From positions 1 to 64,000 of the forward strand of contig NZ_ATDP01000097.1 in the NCBI RefSeq assembly GCF_000445105.1: DNA of 64,000 bases, read 5' to 3'. A program made the translations under genes and the position numbers. Under the pieces are notes generated by a model. That model was not told where the DNA came from, did not search any database, and worked only from the letters and a program-made list of their open reading frames with translations. Shown piece by piece: positions 22,947-43,668 of this stretch. Source of the DNA: Sphingobium lactosutens DS20 (GTDB taxonomy: Bacteria; Pseudomonadota; Alphaproteobacteria; Sphingomonadales; Sphingomonadaceae). How positions within the stretch are numbered: the stretch's first letter is position 1; each line of letters opens with the position of its first letter.

Positions 22947-24098
22947 TCAGGCGCGCATGGGCATGACGCCGGCGATCACGCCCGGCCGGTCGTCACTGGT
23001 GATCATGATGAGGTCGGGCGCCTGGCTGCCGAACCCGATGGACAGCTTGGGGGTCGGCCCGAATATCTTGGCTATCGACTGGGCGTAGATCAGGTTGACG
23101 CGTGTGACGATTTCAGGGCCGTTATAGCTGCCATCCATCGGCTCGATCGAACGGCCGCCATCTGCCGCCGAACCGATCGCCTCGCACCGGCCGCCGTCGA
23201 GCTCCAGCCGCACCGCGCGGGTTTTGCCGTCGGATGCGCTGCCCGCGGCGCGGATGCTGCGATCCCATTCGGTGGACTGGATTTCCAGCGTACTGGCATG
23301 GTCGAAGCGCAGCACGCGGCGATATTGGGGATAGGTCGCGTCCACCAGCTTCCCGGCGATCGACGCGCGGCCGGCCGACACGGCAAAGCCTTTGTCGTTG
23401 ATCGACACCTCGACCTGCGATCCTTCGGGCAGGTCCGCCAGCATCGCGCAGATCAGGCTGACCGCCTTCGTTCCGATAATGCTGTCCGGCATGCCTTCTG
23501 ATCCGGCCGGGGCAGGGTGCTTCACCTGCACCACGCGGTGACCGTCCGTCGACGCAGCGATCAGATGACCGTCTTCGACGTGCAGGAAAACGCCGCACAG
23601 ATAGTAGCGCGTCTCTTCCTGGCTGACGCAGACGCGGGCCGTTTCCAGGACGCGTAGCAGGGGCGCGGCATCGATGGCGAAACCAGTGCTGTCGGCCATG
23701 GCCTTGGGCACCGGGAAATCGGTGGAAGGCATCGTCATCAGCTTGCGGGTGGAACGACCCTGCTTGATCGTGAGCGCGCCGTGCAGGTAACCGATGTCGA
23801 TCGTACCCGGGCGCAGCGTATCGATGGCGGTGAGCAGGCGCTCGGCCTCGACCGTGGTGTCGATCGGTTGGCCTTCATAGGCGATCTGCCGGCGCGACCA
23901 ATGGTCCAGGTCGGACGCGCAGATGGTCAGCAGGCCGTTCTCCACGCGCAACAGCACGTTGGACAGGATGGGGATGGTGTTGCGGCGCTCCACCGTCTGG
24001 CGCACGGCGCGCACGGCGGTCAGCAGCGTATCGCGATCGACGCGCAGGCCTGTGGCGGCTTGCGTATCGGGTCGCTCAAGGGTGTAGGTGTCGGGCAT
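22947..24098 (-). CDS. dnaN: Phage-encoded DNA polymerase III beta sliding clamp
   Basis: 383 residues, the full length of a three-domain bacterial clamp. Recognisable pieces are LLTAVRAVRQTVERRNTIPI (domain 1), then DFPVPKAMADSTGFAI, YYLCGVFLHVEDGHLIAAST and TDGHRVV (domain 2) and the C-terminal VIAGVMPMRA (equivalent of the canonical VMPMR end). It should form a ring that tethers a polymerase to DNA. No phage polymerase is seen nearby, so the clamp may redirect the host polymerase III or protect the phage from inhibition of the host clamp. Such clamps are uncommon in temperate siphoviruses. Confidence 0.93.
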   Translation of the reverse strand: MPDTYTLERPDTQAATGLRVDRDTLLTAVRAVRQTVERRNTIPILSNVLLRVENGLLTICASDLDHWSRRQIAYEGQPIDTTVEAERLLTAIDTLRPGTIDIGYLHGALTIKQGRSTRKLMTMPSTDFPVPKAMADSTGFAIDAAPLLRVLETARVCVSQEETRYYLCGVFLHVEDGHLIAASTDGHRVVQVKHPAPAGSEGMPDSIIGTKAVSLICAMLADLPEGSQVEVSINDKGFAVSAGRASIAGKLVDATYPQYRRVLRFDHASTLEIQSTEWDRSIRAAGSASDGKTRAVRLELDGGRCEAIGSAADGGRSIEPMDGSYNGPEIVTRVNLIYAQSIAKIFGPTPKLSIGFGSQAPDLIMITSDDRPGVIAGVMPMRA

Positions 24099-24108
24099 GG
24101 CGGTCCTT

Positions 24109-24372
24109 TCAGGATGAACGGGATTGGCTGGGCGGCATGTCGACTTCCATGCCGAGGTAGGCGCGGGCGAAGGCCAGGCGTCGGTGCTGCCACTGCGGCG
24201 GCACGTCGATGCGGGCGGCCGTGCGGGCGATCAGGTCCTCGATGGCGTCGCACAGCGCTTCGCTGCCCAGAGTGTGCGCCGTCCTGCGCATCTTGAGCTC
24301 CGCATCACCAAGCGGCGCGACATCCTTGCGCATGGAGCCGCAATGTCGGGCAACGGGACGCTTCCCGGTCAT
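24109..24372 (-). CDS. Small hypothetical protein after methyltransferase
   Basis: 87 residues from the ATG at 24370-24372, overlapping the methyltransferase stop (ATGA); the longer start at 24480 lies inside that gene. Helical, with SEALCDAIEDLIARTAARID and QWQHRRLAFARAYLGMEVD. No domain is recognised. Translational coupling to the helicase-methyltransferase suggests a partner or accessory, but there is no direct evidence. Confidence 0.65.
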   Translation of the reverse strand: MTGKRPVARHCGSMRKDVAPLGDAELKMRRTAHTLGSEALCDAIEDLIARTAARIDVPPQWQHRRLAFARAYLGMEVDMPPSQSRSS

Positions 24373-27038
24373 GCCGCCTTCTCCCGGCCGGCATCCTGCT
24401 CCATGTCGAGCAGGTCGAAGAGCGACGGGACGGCCATCTGATCCTCGGCTTCGCGCAGATAGGTGACGCTGTGCGCCCAATAATCGGGATTGAGCTCGCT
24501 GCCCGCGCCGCGGCGGCCGAGCAGGATCGCGCGCATGGGCACGGTGCCCAGGCCGCAGAAGGGATCATAGACCAGCTCGCCTTTGGCCGAATATCGCTCG
24601 ATCAGCCTGTCGACGATGTCGAACTGCAGGGGACAGACATGCTTTTCGCGGCCCTTCTGCACCTGCTCGGCATTGAGCGTGCGCATACGCACCACATCGT
24701 CCCAGACGTCGGGATGATGGCTGCCCGGGTCCAGCGCCATGAAGGTGCGGGGCAGTTTGCCGCGAGAATCATTGCCGGCGCGCGCCTCGATCGTCTCGCC
24801 AATCTCCCTGTGCGCCTTGAAGCTGTAGACCAGGTCGCGACTTTCCTCGCGGAACCGCTTGGCGAGCTTGCCCACGGCCATATGCGCGAACCGCTCTTCG
24901 ACCTCCCACAATTCGGGGATGGTGAGCGGGCGCGCGCCGCTGGAGCGCCAAAAGGCATGGGCGTCCAGCTGCCAGCGCGCCAGGCTGTAATCGTCGGCAT
25001 CCTTGGCAACCGGCCGGTCGGCATAGCCGCGGCTCCGGTCGCTCTGCGGCTTGCGCATCAACAGCACATATTCCGGGCTGCCCACGCCCATCTTCGTGCC
25101 GTCCTTCAGCATCTCGCTATAGGACAGGCGATAGGTCTGGTTGTTCTCGCGAACGACGTCGGTGACGACCGTGATCATGCCCATGAACTGGAAGCCGTGG
25201 CGCATATAATGCTCGATGCACTTGGCATGGAACGGGTTCACCGTCGGCACGCCTTCGCCCGTGACCGACCCGAACAGGATCCGGTCCTTCACATGGATGC
25301 AGGCCAGCCGGCCGGGCGCGAGTGCCCGGAACAGCGCGGGCGTCAGATAGTCCATCTGCGCGAAGAAATGCGCGTCATCGTCGGTATGGCCGAAGTCGTT
25401 ATAGCTCGGCGTATATTCATAGTGATTGCTGAAGGGGATCGATGTGACGATCAGGTCCAGCGACCCTTCCTCCAACCGCTGCGCTTCGGCGACGCAATCA
25501 TTATGCGCCAGCCGCCAATTGTCGCCAGCCGCTTCCCGACGGTCGACGCCGATGGAGCGCTTCACATTCTCTGCCGCCGCCGCGTGGTTGAGGCCATAGC
25601 GCCGGATCAGGTCGGACATGGTGGCGCGGAATTCGTCATCGCGCGCCCACTTTTCCTGCAACTCGCGCACGACCTCCGTTTCCGTCTCGGCATGGATGAT
25701 GTCGATTTCGACGGGATGCGACTGGCCAAAGCGCTGCACGCGGTGGATCGCCTGGATGAAATCGCGGAACTTGAAGCCGACCCCGGCGAAGATCGCGCGG
25801 TGACAATGGCGTTGCAGGTTGACGCCGCCGCCCAGCATGATCGGCTTTGCCCCGATCAGCGGCAGCACGCCATCTGCGAACCGGCCGACAATATCCTCCC
25901 GCACGTCCAGCTTCTGCGTGCCATAGACCGTCTCGCAGGCGGGCAGGGCAGCCTCGATCGCCCGGCGCTCATCCTCCAGATCGTGCCAGATGATGAAATG
26001 ATCGTGCGGCGCGGCGGCGACGATCTCGGCGGCCTTGCCGATCCGGCTGGCGAGCGTCCGCCGCTTTTCGCGCGATGCCTGCACGACGCCCATGGCGGTG
26101 TCGCGCATCAGGCGGCCCTGACCGTTGCTTTCCGGCTCCGCGTCCGCGATGTCCGCTTCCACGCAGTGCCAGCGCACCGTGATCGGTGGCAGGTCATAGC
26201 CTTCATCGGAAAAGCCCAGGTCGCTCGGGCGCTGGATGCACACCGACCAGCTGTTCACCCAGGTCCAGAATTCATCGACCTTGTGCGGATATAGCGTCAG
26301 GTCGCCCGCCTTCTCGCTGTTGCGCTGGAAAAAGCGGGTGAGCGCCTGGCCAGTGTCCATGATGCCCAGAAACCCGGCATAATGGATCATCTCCTTGTAC
26401 CGGTTCGGCGCGGGCGTGGCGGTCGCGACGAAGCGATAGGGCACGCCCTCGAACAGGGGCAGGAACTCCTGATAGGTCTTCGACCCGTAGGACCGCAGCA
26501 CGTCCGCCTCGTCCAGGCTGGCGAAGCCGAACCGGCTGCCGTCGATCTTGCCTTCGCGAACGCTCTCGTAATTGGTCAGGATGATCGGACGGCCGCGCGG
26601 CTGGCAGCGCTTGGCGGCGTCGGCCAGGATCGCTTCGATCTCGGCATCTGACTGCGCGAAGGCGACCGGGATATCCAGCAGCGCCGCATCGTTGAAAAAT
26701 TCGCGCCGCACATTGAGCGGCAGCACGATGATGCCCCAGCAATTCGCCTTGGCGCAGATCAGCGACCCGATCAGCAATTGCTGCATCGTCTTGTGCAGGC
26801 CGAAGCTCTCGAACAGCCCGCGCCGGCCCCCTTCCACCGCCCAGCGGACGATATGGCGGACATGCTCCTTCATCGGCCGGCCGTCGGTCAAATGCGTCGG
26901 CACCTCGTCCAGGTCGCACGGGAAGCCGGCTGGCTGCGCCAGCGGGATCTTCGCCTCCAGAAAGGCGCGGTAATCAGGGTGCAGGTCATCGTTCGCGGAA
27001 CCGGCTTCAACCGGCGCCGCGTCAATCGCGCTGTTCAT
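24369..27038 (-). CDS. Helicase-adenine/cytosine N-methyltransferase fusion protein
   Basis: 889 residues, two enzymatic halves. The N-terminal part is an SF2 helicase: FGLHKT (79-84) stands where Walker A (GxGKT) is expected, LDEADVLRS carries the DEAD box (176-179), TATP is at 206-209 and the arginine motif AIHRVQRFGQ at 430-439. The C-terminal part is a DNA N-methyltransferase: TSIPF (532-536) as catalytic motif IV, then DPFCGLGT (825-832) as the SAM-binding motif. Motif IV before motif I, with about 290 residues between, is the beta-class order. No nuclease is fused. It resembles in layout the helicase-methylase DarB of phage P1, which protects phage DNA from restriction; that role is inference here. 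ATG has AGGAG upstream. Confidence 0.88.
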   Translation of the reverse strand: MNSAIDAAPVEAGSANDDLHPDYRAFLEAKIPLAQPAGFPCDLDEVPTHLTDGRPMKEHVRHIVRWAVEGGRRGLFESFGLHKTMQQLLIGSLICAKANCWGIIVLPLNVRREFFNDAALLDIPVAFAQSDAEIEAILADAAKRCQPRGRPIILTNYESVREGKIDGSRFGFASLDEADVLRSYGSKTYQEFLPLFEGVPYRFVATATPAPNRYKEMIHYAGFLGIMDTGQALTRFFQRNSEKAGDLTLYPHKVDEFWTWVNSWSVCIQRPSDLGFSDEGYDLPPITVRWHCVEADIADAEPESNGQGRLMRDTAMGVVQASREKRRTLASRIGKAAEIVAAAPHDHFIIWHDLEDERRAIEAALPACETVYGTQKLDVREDIVGRFADGVLPLIGAKPIMLGGGVNLQRHCHRAIFAGVGFKFRDFIQAIHRVQRFGQSHPVEIDIIHAETETEVVRELQEKWARDDEFRATMSDLIRRYGLNHAAAAENVKRSIGVDRREAAGDNWRLAHNDCVAEAQRLEEGSLDLIVTSIPFSNHYEYTPSYNDFGHTDDDAHFFAQMDYLTPALFRALAPGRLACIHVKDRILFGSVTGEGVPTVNPFHAKCIEHYMRHGFQFMGMITVVTDVVRENNQTYRLSYSEMLKDGTKMGVGSPEYVLLMRKPQSDRSRGYADRPVAKDADDYSLARWQLDAHAFWRSSGARPLTIPELWEVEERFAHMAVGKLAKRFREESRDLVYSFKAHREIGETIEARAGNDSRGKLPRTFMALDPGSHHPDVWDDVVRMRTLNAEQVQKGREKHVCPLQFDIVDRLIERYSAKGELVYDPFCGLGTVPMRAILLGRRGAGSELNPDYWAHSVTYLREAEDQMAVPSLFDLLDMEQDAGREKAA

Positions 27039-27077: not shown

Positions 27078-27593
27078 TCAGCCGTCCTTCAGCCGTACTT
27101 CGTTGCGCCGCCGCTCCAGCATGGACGCGGCGTTGATGATGGTGTCGATGGCGCCCGACGTATGCAGCTTGCGCACATCGTCGTCGCAGCAAACATTGTC
27201 GCCAAGCAGCGTGATCAGCAGCGGCAGCGCCTGCGCGATGGCCACGGGGATATGTGAGACATTGCCGCAGCAGATCGCGTCAGCAGGCACCGCCTTCGCG
27301 CCGATCAGCGCCATGATGGTATTCAGCGCCTCGGGGCCGAACGCCTTGCCGATCGACAGCATGGAGACGGCGCTCATGTCGCCCTTCTTGTTGCGAGCGT
27401 TACCGATGCTCGCGGCGCTGTTCCCGATCAGTTCGGCCATGTCCTGGTCGGTCAGGCCTTCGGGCGCGGCCAGCCCGCTGATCGTCTGGCTCACCGCTTC
27501 GCGATAAGAACTTTGGGTAAGCCGGGGCAACTTGCCCAACCCGCTGGGCGCGCCTGCGCGTAGACCGGCATCATGATCACAGCATCCAGCCAT
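27078..27593 (-). CDS. HTH-like early phage regulator
   Basis: 171 residues from the ATG at 27591-27593 that overlaps the preceding stop (TGATG). The segment LTDQDMAELIGNSAASIGNA followed by ARNKKGDMSAVSMLSIGKAF reads as a helix-turn-helix with Cro/C1-like spacing. The rest contains several Cys (AICCGN, NVCCDDD) that could bind metal. It is the second gene of the leftward early operon, a position of CII-like or other early regulators. The exact family is not recognised. Confidence 0.68.
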   Translation of the reverse strand: MAGCCDHDAGLRAGAPSGLGKLPRLTQSSYREAVSQTISGLAAPEGLTDQDMAELIGNSAASIGNARNKKGDMSAVSMLSIGKAFGPEALNTIMALIGAKAVPADAICCGNVSHIPVAIAQALPLLITLLGDNVCCDDDVRKLHTSGAIDTIINAASMLERRRNEVRLKDG

Positions 27594-27898
27594 CACGCCG
27601 CATCCTTCTGGGCATTGGGGCAATCACGCTCACCGCAGGCGCGGATCGTCGCATCCTCCAGCCGCAGGTCGCAGATGGTGCAGAGGGCGGGGGTTGTATC
27701 CTCTGGCGGTAGAAAGTCGGTCCAAGCCACCGATCCGCCCCGTCGGGCGGCGGCATCAATGATGCGCTGCCAATAGCGAGGCGGGATATTTTCCCGGTTG
27801 CGCCACTGACGGACTAGCACGCCGCTCTCGCCGATATCGGCCGCGAGCGCCTCTGCATTGCCATCCCAGACGGAATAGATCGATGACAGGTGAGACAT
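27593..27898 (-). CDS. Cro-like repressor, first gene of leftward operon
   Basis: 101 residues from ATG 27896-27898 (MSHLSSIYSVWDG). NAEALAADIGESGVLVRQWR is a helix-turn-helix of the YdaS/Cro type. The C-terminal half has a zinc-ribbon-like Cys set (CTICD, then ACGERDC). An upstream in-frame ATG at 27911-27913 lies inside the promoter -10 region and cannot be used if the promoter is right. The promoter predicts transcription starting at or within a base or two of the ATG, so the message is probably leaderless. It should oppose the divergent S24 repressor. Confidence 0.8.
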   Translation of the reverse strand: MSHLSSIYSVWDGNAEALAADIGESGVLVRQWRNRENIPPRYWQRIIDAAARRGGSVAWTDFLPPEDTTPALCTICDLRLEDATIRACGERDCPNAQKDAA

Positions 27899-27904
27899 GC
27901 CAGG

Positions 27905-27923
27905 ACGATACATGCCGTATCGT
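27905..27923. promoter_or_regulatory. Repressor operator O1, perfect inverted repeat
   Basis: ACGATAC-ATGCC-GTATCGT, a perfect 7-bp inverted repeat with 5-bp spacer. It covers the -10 box of the leftward promoter. The same 19-bp design recurs at 27929, 29420 and 29444. Confidence 0.85.
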
Positions 27924-27932
27924 TAAAGTCAA
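27905..27932 (-). promoter_or_regulatory. Leftward lytic promoter, sigma70-type
   Basis: On the minus strand TTGACT (27927-27932) is followed after 16 bases by TATCGT (27905-27910). The expected start point, about seven bases on, coincides with the ATG of the Cro-like gene. Both boxes are contained in operator repeats, so repressor binding would block polymerase. Confidence 0.75.
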
Positions 27933-27947
27933 TACCCAACGTATCGC
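27929..27947. promoter_or_regulatory. Repressor operator O2, imperfect copy
   Basis: TCAATAC-CCAAC-GTATCGC: five of seven arm positions pair, with the same 5-bp spacer as O1. Its centre lies 24 bp from O1, and it overlaps the -35 box of the leftward promoter. Placed between the Cro-like gene and the divergent repressor gene, it could also control the repressor's own transcription. Confidence 0.7.
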
Positions 27948-27969
27948 CACGCGATGTATTGGTGACGGC

Positions 27970-28638
27970 ATGTCATCCGAACCAGCGGCGCGTTTGAGGC
28001 GTGCGAGAATTGATGCCGGCTACCAGAGCGCGCAGGCGGCGGCAGATGCCTTCGGCTGGTCCATCGCGGCCTATCGCCATCATGAGAACGGCACCCGCGG
28101 TTTCGATTTTGCGACGGCCCAGCGCTACGGCAAGGCATTCAAGGTTCAGGCCGCATGGCTAATGGGCGAAGGTTCAATGGCGAGCGCCCCGGACGTGCCT
28201 GCCACGATCAGTTCGGCAGACGGCGACGGCACCATATCGCTCAAGCGCATCAATTTAGGCTTTGCCATGGGTGATGGCACGAACCTGGACGATTATGTCG
28301 AGGAAGGCACGATCGATTTCGACGCCAACCTCCTGCGCCTGATCAGCCCGTCCCCAGCACACCGCCTGGTCGTCGCCGATGGGGTAGGGGACAGCATGCA
28401 ACCGACCCTGCTCGACAGCGACATGATCGTCATCGACACAATGCAGAACCAGCTCAACAAGTGGGATCGCATCTGGGCGATGAGCTTGCAGGGCGGCGGC
28501 GCGGTCAAGCGCGTCGGACCGGCCGAGAAAGGCAAGGTGGAAATTATTTCCGATAATCCGGCGATCCCGAACCGGACTGTCGCTTTGGAGGATGTACGGA
28601 TTATTGGAAGGGTTGTATGGTCCGGGCGCAGGCATTGA
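27970..28638 (+). CDS. S24 (LexA/CI-like) phage repressor
   Basis: 222 residues from the ATG at 27970-27972, with GGTGA eight bases upstream. Residues about 8-62 are a helix-turn-helix (SAQAAADAFGWSIAAYRHHE). The C-terminal domain is S24 peptidase-like: VGDSMQPTLLDSDMIVID with the Ser at about 142 and AVKRVG with the Lys at about 180 form the autocleavage dyad. No clear Ala-Gly or Cys-Gly cleavage bond is obvious in the linker. It is divergent from the Cro-like gene across the operators and should maintain lysogeny and respond to RecA. Two genes follow without a gap. Confidence 0.92.
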   Translation: MSSEPAARLRRARIDAGYQSAQAAADAFGWSIAAYRHHENGTRGFDFATAQRYGKAFKVQAAWLMGEGSMASAPDVPATISSADGDGTISLKRINLGFAMGDGTNLDDYVEEGTIDFDANLLRLISPSPAHRLVVADGVGDSMQPTLLDSDMIVIDTMQNQLNKWDRIWAMSLQGGGAVKRVGPAEKGKVEIISDNPAIPNRTVALEDVRIIGRVVWSGRRH

Positions 28639-29027
28639 AGCTATCATGGATCGCGATGCTCGCGCTGGCGGGCTGTTCGGACATGACGAAAGAGCGCGAC
28701 GATTTGCGTCGCGAGGTCGCTGAGCTTCAAAACAAAGTGAAGCTGGAACAAGCGAAACTCGATGTCCTTGTAGAAGCCAATCGGCTGCGTCGCCAGCAAA
28801 TTGACGAACCAATCGAAGCCGTAGAACCATCATCGACTCCGCCAACGAAGGTGCGAAGCGTGGCAATGTGCTATAAGGACTATTGTCCGTGCGAAGGCGA
28901 TCAGCAAGGGATGGATACTGTTCTTTGCGATCAACTGGAGGCGGGCGTCGACGTTGATGTACGCATGATGATAGCAGGCCGTGGCAATCGAGAGGTCAGG
29001 CGTCAGCTAGAAACCGGAGATTACTGA
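28617..29027 (+). CDS. Lipoprotein with coiled coil, co-expressed with repressor
   Basis: 136 residues. The N-terminus (ALKLSWIAMLALAGCSD) is a lipoprotein signal with lipobox ALAGC. Residues 23-60 form a charged coiled coil (TKERDDLRREVAELQNKVKL). The C-terminal part has several Cys (MCYKDYCPCEGD) and no known domain. It begins inside the last 22 bases of the repressor gene, with GGAAGG upstream, so it is probably made in the lysogen. Superinfection exclusion at the envelope is the natural guess, as many prophage lipoproteins do this. The DNA is more AT-rich than the late genes. Confidence 0.8.
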   Translation: MVRAQALKLSWIAMLALAGCSDMTKERDDLRREVAELQNKVKLEQAKLDVLVEANRLRRQQIDEPIEAVEPSSTPPTKVRSVAMCYKDYCPCEGDQQGMDTVLCDQLEAGVDVDVRMMIAGRGNREVRRQLETGDY

Positions 29028-29030
29028 CCT

Positions 29031-29420
29031 TTGGGACAACTCTCCCTTATCATCGTCGGCGCTGACCATCCGAACAAGGATAAGTCGAACCGCCGATCGG
29101 AAATCCTCTGGTCGCACCCCGGGGAGGAGGTGCATCTTGCTCCCGAACCAAAGAACCCCGTTGATCCCCAGGCGGTTGCCGTATTCAGCGCGCGCGGCGT
29201 GCAAATCGGGTATGTTCGTGGTGAGCAGTGCCAGCTGATCCGCAGCTACCTCTCCCGTGACCGCATAACAGGCGCGATCTTTCAGGATCGGCACGACAAG
29301 GGGGCGGTTATACGTCTAGCCCTCGATGGAGATGCGCCGACATTGCCCGACCTGCCTCCCGAATCGGCCGCCGAGGGGCAGGATGGGTTTTACCCTGATC
29401 CTGAATATGACGACTTCTAG
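29031..29420 (+). CDS. HIRAN-domain protein in the immunity operon
   Basis: 129 residues from a TTG (29031-29033), three bases after the previous stop. Residues about 5-90 fit the HIRAN domain: VHLAPEPKNPVDPQAVAVFS, then ARGVQIGYVRGEQCQLI. HIRAN domains bind DNA ends or stalled forks and occur in HLTF helicases and as stand-alone bacterial and phage proteins. The acidic tail (EYDDF) is short. Placed third in the repressor operon and just before the rightward operators, it is likely expressed in lysogens. Its role is unknown; a defence or DNA-processing function is inference. Confidence 0.8.
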   Translation: MGQLSLIIVGADHPNKDKSNRRSEILWSHPGEEVHLAPEPKNPVDPQAVAVFSARGVQIGYVRGEQCQLIRSYLSRDRITGAIFQDRHDKGAVIRLALDGDAPTLPDLPPESAAEGQDGFYPDPEYDDF

Positions 29421-29438
29421 CGATACGATACGTATTGA
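29420..29438. promoter_or_regulatory. Repressor operator O3
   Basis: GCGATAC-GATAC-GTATTGA: an imperfect copy of the O1 design (five of seven arm positions pair) with the same 5-bp spacer. It overlaps the -35 box of the rightward promoter. Its centre is 24 bp from the next copy. Confidence 0.7.
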
Positions 29439-29462
29439 CATGAACGATACATAGAGTATTGT
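29435..29462 (+). promoter_or_regulatory. Rightward prophage promoter, sigma70-type
   Basis: TTGACA (29435-29440) is a perfect -35 box, followed after 16 bases by TATTGT (29457-29462). The architecture (same spacing, same operators over each box) mirrors the leftward promoter. Transcription should begin near 29469 and drive the operon from 29523 through the integrase. Confidence 0.8.
29444..29462. promoter_or_regulatory. Repressor operator O4
   Basis: ACGATAC-ATAGA-GTATTGT: identical to O1 in the left arm and one mismatch in the right arm, same 5-bp spacer. It covers the -10 box of the rightward promoter. With O3 it repeats the 24-bp pair seen at the leftward promoter. Confidence 0.82.
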
Positions 29463-29489
29463 CTCTCCATCGCCTGATCACCCGCGCAT

Positions 29490-29516
29490 CCCGCCGGGTC
29501 GCAAGACGGCGGGGAG
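29490..29516 (+). promoter_or_regulatory. Leader hairpin abutting the ribosome site
   Basis: In the leader, CCCGCC (29490-29495) pairs with GGCGGG (29508-29513). GTC (29498-29500) pairs with GAC (29505-29507) across a GCAA loop, a GNRA tetraloop, with a two-base bulge. The GGGGAG ribosome site at 29511-29516 is partly inside the stem. The hairpin could limit translation of the first gene. It may also be chance in GC-rich DNA. Confidence 0.5.
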
Positions 29517-29522
29517 ATCAAC

Positions 29523-29807
29523 ATGCGTGTCCCGCACTACACCGTGGGCTCGGCCGCTGCGCTGACGCTGTCCAGGTTGGAGCATTTGCGCCGCCGCGAA
29601 AGCCCGCTGAGCGTCGATGACCTGATCAAGATTGCGCGCTTCAACGCTGGTGAGGCGCATGCGCTGTTCGCCACCGATCCGGCGACCGCCCGCGACTTTC
29701 TGCTGAACGGCGCCAGCCGCATGATCCGTGCAGCCGAACAGCTGGAGCAGGACGTCGCCGCCGCCCACCGCCCGGCCGCCGTCATGCCGTTGAGGGCCGT
29801 ATCGTGA
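29523..29807 (+). CDS. First gene of rightward prophage operon, unknown
   Basis: 94 residues, mostly helical and soluble (ALTLSRLEHLRRRESPLSVD, then LLNGASRMIRAAEQLEQDVA). It has GGGGAG seven bases before the ATG. No known domain. As the first gene behind the repressor-controlled promoter it is expected early in induction, together with the genes that overlap its end (GTGA). Confidence 0.7.
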   Translation: MRVPHYTVGSAAALTLSRLEHLRRRESPLSVDDLIKIARFNAGEAHALFATDPATARDFLLNGASRMIRAAEQLEQDVAAAHRPAAVMPLRAVS

Positions 29808-34417: not shown

Positions 34418-34659
34418 TGGGCGCGCATGAGCGCTGGCCGCGCATGATGAAGCGAGCAACGGCCTGCCAGTATGTCGAATTGTCGGCCGCAGAGCTGGAG
34501 CGCGAGATCGCTGCCGGCCGCCTGCCGCATCCGGTGATGCTGGGCAACGTCGTCCACTGGAGCCGTGCGGAGATCGACGCCTACCTTGAGCGCCTGACCG
34601 AAAACGAGGCTGCCGCCACCGACTGGCGCAGCGGAACGAAGCTGTATGCGAATGGCTAG
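34417..34659 (+). CDS. AlpA/excisionase-like DNA-binding protein
   Basis: 80 residues; start at 34417 shares a base with the upstream stop (TGATG), with ATG 34444 as alternative. The core MMKRATACQYVELSAAELER and the later LGNVVHWSRAEIDAYLERL is the MerR-like winged helix of AlpA/excisionase proteins. It lies directly before the integrase and overlaps it by 14 bases. It probably directs excision or regulates the integrase. Confidence 0.75.
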   Translation: MGAHERWPRMMKRATACQYVELSAAELEREIAAGRLPHPVMLGNVVHWSRAEIDAYLERLTENEAAATDWRSGTKLYANG

Positions 34660-35659
34660 GATCGTCAAATATGTGAAGCAGACGAAGGCCAAGGGTCACA
34701 AATATTATTATTTCGACACGGGCCAGACTGACGAAAAGGGCAAGAAGGTGTGGAAGCGCCTGCCTGATCCTGCCGACCGCACTTTTGGCGCCGTCTATGC
34801 CGCCCTGCTGGGCCACCGCACGCGACGGGCGAATGTCGTCGCGCAATTGACCCTGTCCGGCTTGGTCGACCTGTATCAGGCAAGCGACAAGTTCGCGAAA
34901 CTCGCAGCATCGACCCAGCGGCTCTATCGTCTCTACCAGGGTGAACTGGTCGACAAACTAGGCAACGCGCCAGCGCAGCTGGTCGAGCGCAAGGATATCG
35001 TCCTGTTGCTCGATCTGATGGCCGACCGGCCGGGCGCGGCGAACATGGTGCAACGGGCGGCTGGCGCGGCCTATGCATGGGGCCGCAAGCGCGGCCATGT
35101 GACCAATGATCCGCTTGTCGGGATCGAGGAAATGGAGACAGGCGAACACCAGCCATGGCCCGATGAGGCACTGGCGAAGGGGCTGGCAAGCGACGATGCG
35201 CTCGCACGGCTGTCCGTGCATTTGCTCTACTATACTGCCCAGAGAATCGGGGACGTAGCGGCGCTGACCTGGGGCAGCTTCGACGGTCATATGATTTCGC
35301 TGACCCAGGAAAAGACGGGCAAGTATCTCGACATTCCGGTGCACGATGCGCTGGCGAAGGAATTGGCGCAGCACCCGCGCGGCAATAGTGACGAACCGAT
35401 CATTCCCGGCAAGCCGTCGCCGGCAAAGGCCAACCGGATCCGCCTGGCCGTCCAGGCGGCGGTCGCGCCCACGAAGGTGGTGCCTCATGGCTTGCGAAAG
35501 AACGCCGTCAATGCTCTGCTCGAAAAGGGCTGCACCGCGGCGGAAACGGCAGCGATCAGCGGCCAGTCGCTGGCCATGGTTGAGTATTATGCTCGCCGCC
35601 GGTCGCAGAAGAAGCTCGGCCAGACTGCCATGCGGAAGTGGCAGCAGGACGAAACGTGA
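34646..35659 (+). CDS. int: Tyrosine-recombinase phage integrase
   Basis: 337 residues (or 335 from ATG 34652). An arm-binding/core-binding N-terminal half is followed by the catalytic half: Arg200 in AQRIGDVAALTW, Lys223 in TQEKTGK, His281 and Arg284 in VPHGLRKN, and the nucleophile Tyr at 315 (MVEYYARR). The position usually held by His or Trp (about 307) is Gln in GQSLA. The gene ends 72 bases before the first chromosomal gene. It inserts and excises the prophage. Confidence 0.92.
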   Translation: MRMARIVKYVKQTKAKGHKYYYFDTGQTDEKGKKVWKRLPDPADRTFGAVYAALLGHRTRRANVVAQLTLSGLVDLYQASDKFAKLAASTQRLYRLYQGELVDKLGNAPAQLVERKDIVLLLDLMADRPGAANMVQRAAGAAYAWGRKRGHVTNDPLVGIEEMETGEHQPWPDEALAKGLASDDALARLSVHLLYYTAQRIGDVAALTWGSFDGHMISLTQEKTGKYLDIPVHDALAKELAQHPRGNSDEPIIPGKPSPAKANRIRLAVQAAVAPTKVVPHGLRKNAVNALLEKGCTAAETAAISGQSLAMVEYYARRRSQKKLGQTAMRKWQQDET

Positions 35660-35730
35660 ACTATCAAACCCTTTCAAACCGCCCTATTTTTGCGCGCAGG
35701 GCTGTCATTGTGGCTTACCAAACCGTAACC
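35660..35730. other. Right prophage-chromosome junction with candidate att features
   Basis: Between the integrase stop and the first chromosomal gene there are three copies of CAAACC (35665, 35675, 35719), possible integrase arm sites. TTAC-CAAACC-GTAA at about 35716-35729 is a short inverted repeat with a 6-bp spacer, like a tyrosine-recombinase core. No tRNA is present. The crossover cannot be fixed without the other end. Confidence 0.35.
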
Positions 35731-42930: not shown

Positions 42931-43668
42931 ATGCAATCGACAGGCAACACCATTCTCATCACCGGCGGCGGATCAGGCATCGGCGCTGCCTTGGCGCATG
43001 AATTTCACCAGGCGGGCAACCAGGTCATCATCGCGGGGCGGCGGCAGTCGGCACTCGATGCCGTCATTGCCGATCATCCGGGCATGGCGGCCATGACGCT
43101 CGACATGGAAGATGCAGCGGCGATTCCCGGATTTGCGCAGGCGCTGATTGCCGATTTTCCGGGACTGAACGCGGTGGTGCTGAATGCCGGCATCATGGTG
43201 GCGGAGGACCGGATCGATCTTGAAACAGCCGAGGCGACGATCGCGACCAATTTGCTGGGTCCGATCCGGCTCGCGCATGCGCTGCTGCCGCATCTTCAAA
43301 AACAGCCTGCCTCCACGATCCTGACGGTATCGTCGGGCCTGGCCTTTGTCCCTCTGGCCGCGACGCCGACCTATTGTGCGACGAAGGCGGCCGTTCACAG
43401 CTGGTCCATGTCCCTGCGCGCGCAGTTGAAGGACAGCAGCGTTGAAGTGGTCGAGATCGTGCCGCCTGCCGTGCAGACCGATCTGATGCCCGGCCATGCG
43501 GAAAATCCCAACGCCTTGCCGCTCGCCGACTATATCGCTGAAACCATGGCGCTGCTTCGGCAAGAACCCACGCCGCCCGAAATCCATGTCGAACGCGTCA
43601 AATATCTGAGCGAAGCGGCCCAACGCGGGGAATTGGAAGACGTCTTCCGCACGCTCAATTCGCACTGA
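42931..43668 (+). CDS. Short-chain dehydrogenase/reductase
   Basis: 245 residues. Cofactor motif TGGGSGIGAALA, NAG motif and Y-x-x-x-K (YCATKAA) are all present; LTVSSGLAFVPLAATPTYCA gives the catalytic Ser. NAD(P)-dependent oxidoreductase of the DltE/YciK type. It is divergent from the HxlR regulator, whose inducer may be related to its substrate. The start has GAAAGGAG upstream. Confidence 0.9.
   Translation: MQSTGNTILITGGGSGIGAALAHEFHQAGNQVIIAGRRQSALDAVIADHPGMAAMTLDMEDAAAIPGFAQALIADFPGLNAVVLNAGIMVAEDRIDLETAEATIATNLLGPIRLAHALLPHLQKQPASTILTVSSGLAFVPLAATPTYCATKAAVHSWSMSLRAQLKDSSVEVVEIVPPAVQTDLMPGHAENPNALPLADYIAETMALLRQEPTPPEIHVERVKYLSEAAQRGELEDVFRTLNSH

Follow-up and report, generated by a model that had tools for sequence, protein, structure and literature searches.

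In phage lambda, cI and cro lie in an immunity region with two operator regions, OR and OL, of three operators each, and the gene order is cI-rexA-rexB. Here we describe the immunity region of a prophage in Sphingobium lactosutens DS20 which, judged from its sequence, is very probably a lambda-type region in mirror orientation, with one operator code at both early promoters. It was analysed within a stretch of 64,000 nucleotides, all of which we refer to as the window (NCBI RefSeq assembly GCF_000445105.1, contig NZ_ATDP01000097.1, positions 1 to 64,000 of the forward strand). As in lambda, cI and cro are divergent, the operators between them overlap the cro promoter, and, past accessory genes, the opposite early promoter has a second operator set of the same code. 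Like lambda-type repressors, that of the window combines an N-terminal helix-turn-helix (HTH) domain with a C-terminal S24 domain. The operator pair O1/O2 resembles lambda OR and the pair O4/O3 resembles lambda OL, in mirror image. Unlike in lambda, the region is mirrored, a HIRAN-domain gene sits in the rex-like slot, no N gene was recognised, and instead of 3 + 3 operators the window has two firm sites in each arm and its relatives commonly have 3 + 2 scored sites.

Published accounts, used here as excerpts, describe several related arrangements. The CI and Cro proteins of lambda compete for two tripartite operator sites (PMC6550527). The N15 repressor has three sites between cB and cro and two (OL) upstream of repA (PMC4488713), and the same 3 + 2 anatomy as in N15 immB was scored in many relatives here; three operators per arm are therefore not a strict criterion for a lambda-type region. 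In contrast to our locus, the partner arm of N15 serves repA, and the excerpt on N15 mentions no HIRAN gene. The 933W repressor has five naturally occurring sites with a 15-bp symmetric code (PMC3317979), whereas both repressor and code are different ones here. In Cluster A mycobacteriophages such as L5 and Bxb1, the site consensuses of heteroimmune phages are distinct and the repressors prefer their own (PMC6550527). Those sites are mostly stoperators away from promoters; here, in contrast, there are a few palindromes, placed at two promoters, and one C-terminal domain comes with DNA-binding domains that differ as a whole. Finally, the lambdoid cI-n region is a hotspot of mosaic diversity (PMC8585504). 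As in the rexAB/BstA slot, accessory genes here lie between cI and the next early operon, but a HIRAN gene occupies the operator end.

The switch of the window is itself of the lambda type, a kind already known. What appears to be new, from sequence comparison, is the joint change of two separate operator sets and the repressor head while the repressor body is kept, together with tandem repressors that are candidate intermediates. No earlier report of this cassette was among the matches listed in a search of titles and abstract beginnings in the open-licence literature. In a tblastn search of 50,697 phage records, the HIRAN protein of the window had 1 weak match (E 1e-7), so its family appears to be little represented among isolated phages.

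Operators and promoters in the window

Along the window, the order is cro (leftward), O1/O2, cI, an accessory gene, the HIRAN gene, O4/O3 and the rightward operon. The operators and promoters are as follows.

27905..27923, no strand: O1, OR-like operator covering the leftward -10 box (sequence, motif and weight-model scans)
27929..27947, no strand: O2, OR-like operator that overlaps the leftward -35 box (sequence, motif and weight-model scans)
27905..27932, minus strand: leftward early promoter, TTGACT-16-TATCGT (consensus match only)
29420..29438, no strand: O4, OL-like operator that overlaps the rightward -35 box (scans; aligned with relatives)
29444..29462, no strand: O3, OL-like operator covering the rightward -10 box (sequence, motif and weight-model scans)
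29435..29462, plus strand: rightward early promoter, TTGACA-16-TATTGT (consensus match only)

A preliminary description of this DNA had reported four 19-bp palindromes in two equally spaced pairs over the boxes of two promoters, and all of this was recovered. Against ACGATAC-N5-GTATCGT, O1 has 0 mismatches, O2 and O4 have 3 each (both are imperfect palindromes) and O3 has 1; under a position weight model, these four sites together take the top four ranks in the 64-kb window. Centres are 24 bp apart in both pairs. By coordinates, in each arm 4 bp of the -35 box lie within the promoter-distal operator, and the -10 box consists of the outermost 6 bp of the other operator. Both promoters have 16-bp spacers and a -10 box of the form TATNGT (TATCGT on the left, TATTGT on the right), and the promoter scan gave 3 promoter-like sites in 27500–29600, with 1.1 expected. 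O4 also overlaps the stop codon of the HIRAN gene by one base. A model trained on the left pair ranked both right sites above every other non-training place in the window, and the reciprocal model, trained on the right pair, did the same for both left sites.

The four best sites score 19.3–21.6 and are confined to the two arms, and the next prophage sites score 11.8. A stoperator-like scatter was rejected on these grounds, and a search of the full prophage with mismatches allowed likewise gave none. The earlier claim that the repeat occurs only around the repressor cassette stands for the prophage part (positions 1–35657 were scanned). In the window as a whole, 5 matches have at most three mismatches (mean 1.00, maximum 4 in 100 shuffles), the fifth lying at 43315–43333 with 1 mismatch, inside an open reading frame (ORF; 42931–43668) beyond the prophage end. 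Being in an ORF outside the prophage, it is probably a chance match. The prophage end is near 35,660 on the contig; an IMG/VR record of 35,657 bp has a 100% identical repressor at the corresponding place, and an integrase-like ORF, identified by eye, spans 34646–35659. We also considered a third left operator at 27944 and rejected it: it scored 8.8, under background sites at 11.8–12.0, and the score of 13 given by an iterated model came from a training set that included it.

S24 repressors are related to LexA, and palindromes overlying promoters are typical of host regulators too. The sites could on this account belong to a host regulator, LexA for example, that happens to control both early promoters. 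We regard this as extremely improbable. Among the matches listed for the 5.35-Mb genome, 27905, 29444 and 43315 are the only places with at most one mismatch, and the 131 matches with at most three compare with 121 in a reversed control, so loose matches are near the chance number. The palindrome sequence, moreover, differs among closely related prophages, where it tracks the HTH of the phage repressor.

Recurrence of the two-arm layout in relatives

The layout of a lambda-type region with one phage code at both arms was examined in related loci. When an alignment of five HIRAN proteins was used to scan for relatives, 49 viral loci came up; in 45 of these, the HIRAN gene is preceded by an S24 repressor gene in the same orientation. 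These 45 together with L044, L045 and L050 (locus numbers are our own) form a set of 48 loci, which includes the window's own prophage as L054; L077, L092, L097 and L099, without a repressor match, were left out. Not entered were L046 (taken as the L063 prophage), L053 (without HIRAN) and the repeat contigs L005–L010, L047–L049, L051 and L052. A palindromic code was learned from the cro/cI side only, and the remaining locus was then scanned.

The best match elsewhere fell at -15 to +80 bp of the HIRAN stop in 42 of the 48 loci, a target that by our own arithmetic makes up ~0.8% of a 12-kb locus. For a second set, 49 of 62 matches in genomes of the same family were fetched (L113–L161). The remainder comprised two from the genome of the window itself, one close to the end of a contig and ten weaker matches; 24 of the fetched loci were testable. 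The same method succeeded in 16 of these 24 (target ~1.4%), or in 13 of 21 once 3 repeats of first-set prophages are removed.

Left and right arms of one locus scored at least 21 against each other in 45 of 48 loci, as compared with 292 of 2256 mixed ordered pairs, and the observed mean own left/right score of 22.44 exceeded all 20,000 permutations (maximum 19.67). Locus-refined models scored three sites on the left in 26 of the 48 loci and two on the right in 39, counts that come from models containing those sites; in the same models, operator spacings tend to agree within one code. The compact circuit first proposed for the window, with one code for two mirror promoters, is supported by the recurrence of the two-arm layout with other codes and by the way in which the code follows the repressor HTH.

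Agreement between arms might also be chance, or the leftover of a duplication rather than a sign of selected operators. Read outward, the left and right arms of the window are identical at 32 of 43 bases, as a duplication would also give; the next-best arm-like matches in the prophage reach 24 (the same arms, other strand) and 23 (elsewhere). The identity lies mainly in the palindrome arms and promoter boxes, however, and arms agree within 45 of the 48 loci although the sequence differs between loci. We find this explanation scarcely credible, and selected operators of one code at both arms the better account.

Operator code, repressor domains and a proposed exchange of cassettes

With a similarity threshold of 0.3, the cI HTHs sort the 48 loci into 14 groups. 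Mixed ordered pairs have the same code in 29 of 1890 cases at an HTH similarity below 0.15, in 22 of 98 at 0.15–0.30, in 72 of 86 at 0.30–0.45 and in 169 of 182 at 0.45 or above. These counts use the outer HTH of L044 and L045, whose repressors have two, a choice made after seeing both; with the inner HTH instead, 2% of 1850 unrelated pairs have the same code. When the C-terminal similarity is at least 0.8 and the HTH similarity below 0.3, the code is the same in 0 of 62 ordered pairs, and when the C-terminal similarity is below 0.45 and the HTH similarity at least 0.3, in 147 of 166. Among 27 unordered pairs with similar C-terminal domains and unrelated (inner) HTHs, only L044–L045 has the same code, and these two have the outer HTH in common. 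Across these sequence comparisons, the operator code follows the DNA-binding domain of the repressor and not its C-terminal domain.

The repressors of L044 (Sphingobium naphthae) and L045 (a Sphingobium metagenome-assembled genome) contain two HTHs ahead of the C-terminal domain in one open frame. Pfam recognises two HTH stretches in L044 and the outer HTH only in L045, where the inner HTH equals the head of the L057 repressor over 88 residues, likewise unrecognised by Pfam. With 3 synonymous and 0 nonsynonymous codon differences from L057 in these 88 codons, the inner HTH of L045 is intact, though a recent origin could simply account for this. In L044 and L045, the code at both arms is the ATATGCAC code of L061, a phage with an HTH similar to the outer one; the four best matches in each locus to the ACACC code, and the four best to the TGGGA code (TGGGAT in L057), are not at the arms. 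A search of 397 family genomes for further tandem-HTH repressors gave 4 matches, each spanning one HTH only.

Alternatively, the main occupant of the sites might be the Cro-like protein, or cI might bind at just one of the arms, and to speak of one repressor code would then be misleading. The HTH of Cro does co-vary with the code: the same code is found in 158 of 160 ordered pairs in which the Cro and cI HTHs are both similar and in 2 of 1444 in which both are different (L056, L071, L072, L079 and L089, with doubtful cro calls, were left out of the Cro counts only). No pair has similar cI HTHs with different Cro; the two HTHs are swapped together, so their roles are not fully separable. Yet where Cro is moderately similar and the cI HTH unrelated, 0 of 20 ordered pairs have the same code. 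The L061 code of L044 and L045, found with a matching outer HTH, points the same way, but not independently, since their Cro also resembles that of L061. On this evidence we judge both versions of this alternative to be very improbable. The single repressor of the preliminary description goes further than the sequence shows and may be an incomplete account, because the left arm also encodes a Cro-like protein whose HTH co-varies with the code.

The limits of the variable stretches can be traced among close relatives. The window, L044, L045, L057 and L058 have the Cys-rich Cro tail in common while the Cro HTH differs, except that L044 is like L045 and L057 like L058. In comparisons with L057, the unaligned left stretch measures ~480 bp for L045 and ~510 bp for the window, and from the alignments a kept protein end seems to border the left cassette on either side. 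On the right, the cassette is short: the downstream leader is almost identical in the window, L057, L056, L045 and L044, and the operators differ. In the wider family, specificity would reside in two physically separate, jointly changing cassettes, a left one of ~0.5 kb (cro HTH, left operators, cI HTH) and a right one of ~50 bp (the right operators), and the cI C-terminal domain, the HIRAN gene and the rightward leader can be retained. Rather more doubtful is a plug-in immunity family in which two separate cassettes are exchanged, with L044 and L045 as stepping stones and maybe bispecific repressors: the outer HTH would bind the phage's own operators and the inner HTH the old code, making the lysogen immune to two phage types.

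Similarity to Cro alone led to ten loci. One of them, L103, is the window's own locus, and L109 was left out; the other eight were searched with the model of the window. The window's code is present in L104, L105, L106 and L112 as two pairs, with sites 24–25 bp apart, flanking a cI HTH 47–56% identical to that of the window; with L111 included, the identities are 42–56%. No match to the window's C-terminal domain was found in these five loci. In L107, L108 and L110, with only the Cro tail in common, no such sites scored above 11.7.

Several results weigh against one code at both arms that follows the repressor head. The method missed in six of the 48 loci (L044, L045, L064, L066, L076 and L101). 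L044 and L045 were missed because their longer repressors misplaced the search window, and direct left-right comparison found palindromes common to both sides in 5 of the 6 (scores 20–22), with nothing convincing in L101. Eight of the 24 second-set loci were also missed: L113, L114, L116, L117 and L124 have weaker repressor matches, L149 and L152 have strong ones, and the contig of L131 stops 32 bases after the HIRAN stop. For 25 of the 49 second-set HIRAN stretches there is no such same-strand upstream repressor, so the HIRAN family also occurs in other settings. In only 38 of 48 cases did no other right region outscore that of the locus itself. L074 and L091 belong to the largest HTH group (ACACC), yet their code is TGCCC, so similar HTHs do not guarantee a common code, and L111 shows a single weak pair. 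In the window, firm left sites number two only, versus three scored in 26 of the 48 loci by models that contain the counted sites and that also count three in the window's own locus. Finally, the promoter scan of 27500–29600 reported no promoter toward cI.

Proposed circuit and neighbouring genes

The genes around the operators are as follows.

24369..27038, minus strand: helicase / DNA methyltransferase fusion, third gene of the leftward operon (family searches)
27078..27623, minus strand: second gene of the leftward operon, phrog_16695, no assigned function
27593..27898, minus strand: Cro-like HTH protein of 101 residues, first gene of the leftward operon, N-terminal HTH and Cys-rich tail (phrog_35, E 8e-4)
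27970..28638, plus strand: CI-type repressor of 222 residues, N-terminal HTH and C-terminal S24 peptidase-like domain at residues 99–216 (family searches)
28617..29027, plus strand: ORF of 136 residues in the rex-like slot between cI and the HIRAN gene (no family above cut-off)
29031..29420, plus strand: HIRAN-domain protein of 129 residues (HIRAN E 2.5e-9; phrog_27141)
29463..29522, plus strand: rightward operon leader, predicted to form a hairpin in which the Shine-Dalgarno sequence is paired
29523..29807, plus strand: protein of 94 residues, first gene of the rightward operon, no assigned function

The repressor matches S24 in Pfam at E 2.9e-15 and HTH_31 at E 2.4e-4, under its gathering cut-off; its structure model is poor (mean predicted local distance difference test score 52) and was left out of the fold search. 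The Cro-like assignment comes from weak family matches (YdaS_toxin at E 0.065, below cut-off) together with gene position. The Cro-like structure model is confident at about residues 1–60 and is the best of five, the remaining four averaging 52–58. Its best match in the PDB is the Xfaso 1 Cro protein 3bd1, with a probability of 0.99 but an E-value of 0.39; Cro and CI folds are included among its matches at weak E-values, and epoxidase chains rank among them. The 94-residue and phrog_16695 genes stand at the positions expected of N and cII, with no match to an N or CII family (cIII was not searched for). Beyond the 94-residue gene, the rightward operon continues with others, including an SNF2-type helicase.

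In a lysogen, dimers of the S24 repressor would bind O1/O2 and O4/O3 and block both early promoters, shutting off cro, the phrog_16695 gene and the helicase/methyltransferase to the left and the 94-residue gene onward to the right. The genes for cI, the 136-residue protein and the HIRAN protein, which point the same way between the arms, where lambda has cI-rexA-rexB, would probably be expressed. During lytic growth, the Cro-like protein would compete for the left sites at least. To call the palindromes direct evidence for a lysis-lysogeny switch, as was done at first, goes further than sequence allows.

Several side observations concern these genes. At 28264–28278 of the window (cI residues 99–103) the repressor seems to have Ala-Met-Gly, invariant in six sequences including that of the window. 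CI and LexA proteins have an Ala-Gly cleavage dipeptide at the corresponding place, and with Ala-Met-Gly there induction may differ from the SOS model. The start codon of cro lies 6–7 bases past the -10 box in the window (27896–27910) and in L104, L105, L106, L111 and L112, as judged by eye, so cro may be transcribed without a leader. Between cI and HIRAN, the ORFs differ among the window, L006, L007 and L010, whereas L008 and L009 have related ones (by eye); by analogy with the rex/BstA slot, these are candidates for cargo expressed in the lysogen. A protein resembling the DNA polymerase III beta clamp is encoded in the leftward early region of the prophage (22947–24098, minus strand).

In the rightward leader, the Shine-Dalgarno sequence of the first gene is predicted to pair with an upstream stretch in 38 of 46 leaders, compared with 45 of 96 control genes, for which a fixed 62-nt stretch was used that was not matched to each leader. 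The stem sequences vary between phages while the pairing recurs, which suggests a kept structure.

The divergence of phage immunity into new specificities is described as poorly understood (PMC6550527). The repressor and all of its operators must change together, and here the operator sets are ~1.5 kb apart with kept sequence between them. With many codes on one scaffold, near-identical repressor bodies with different heads and two candidate intermediates, this family makes the question of how specificities diverge testable, and it offers matched natural pairs of repressors and operators.
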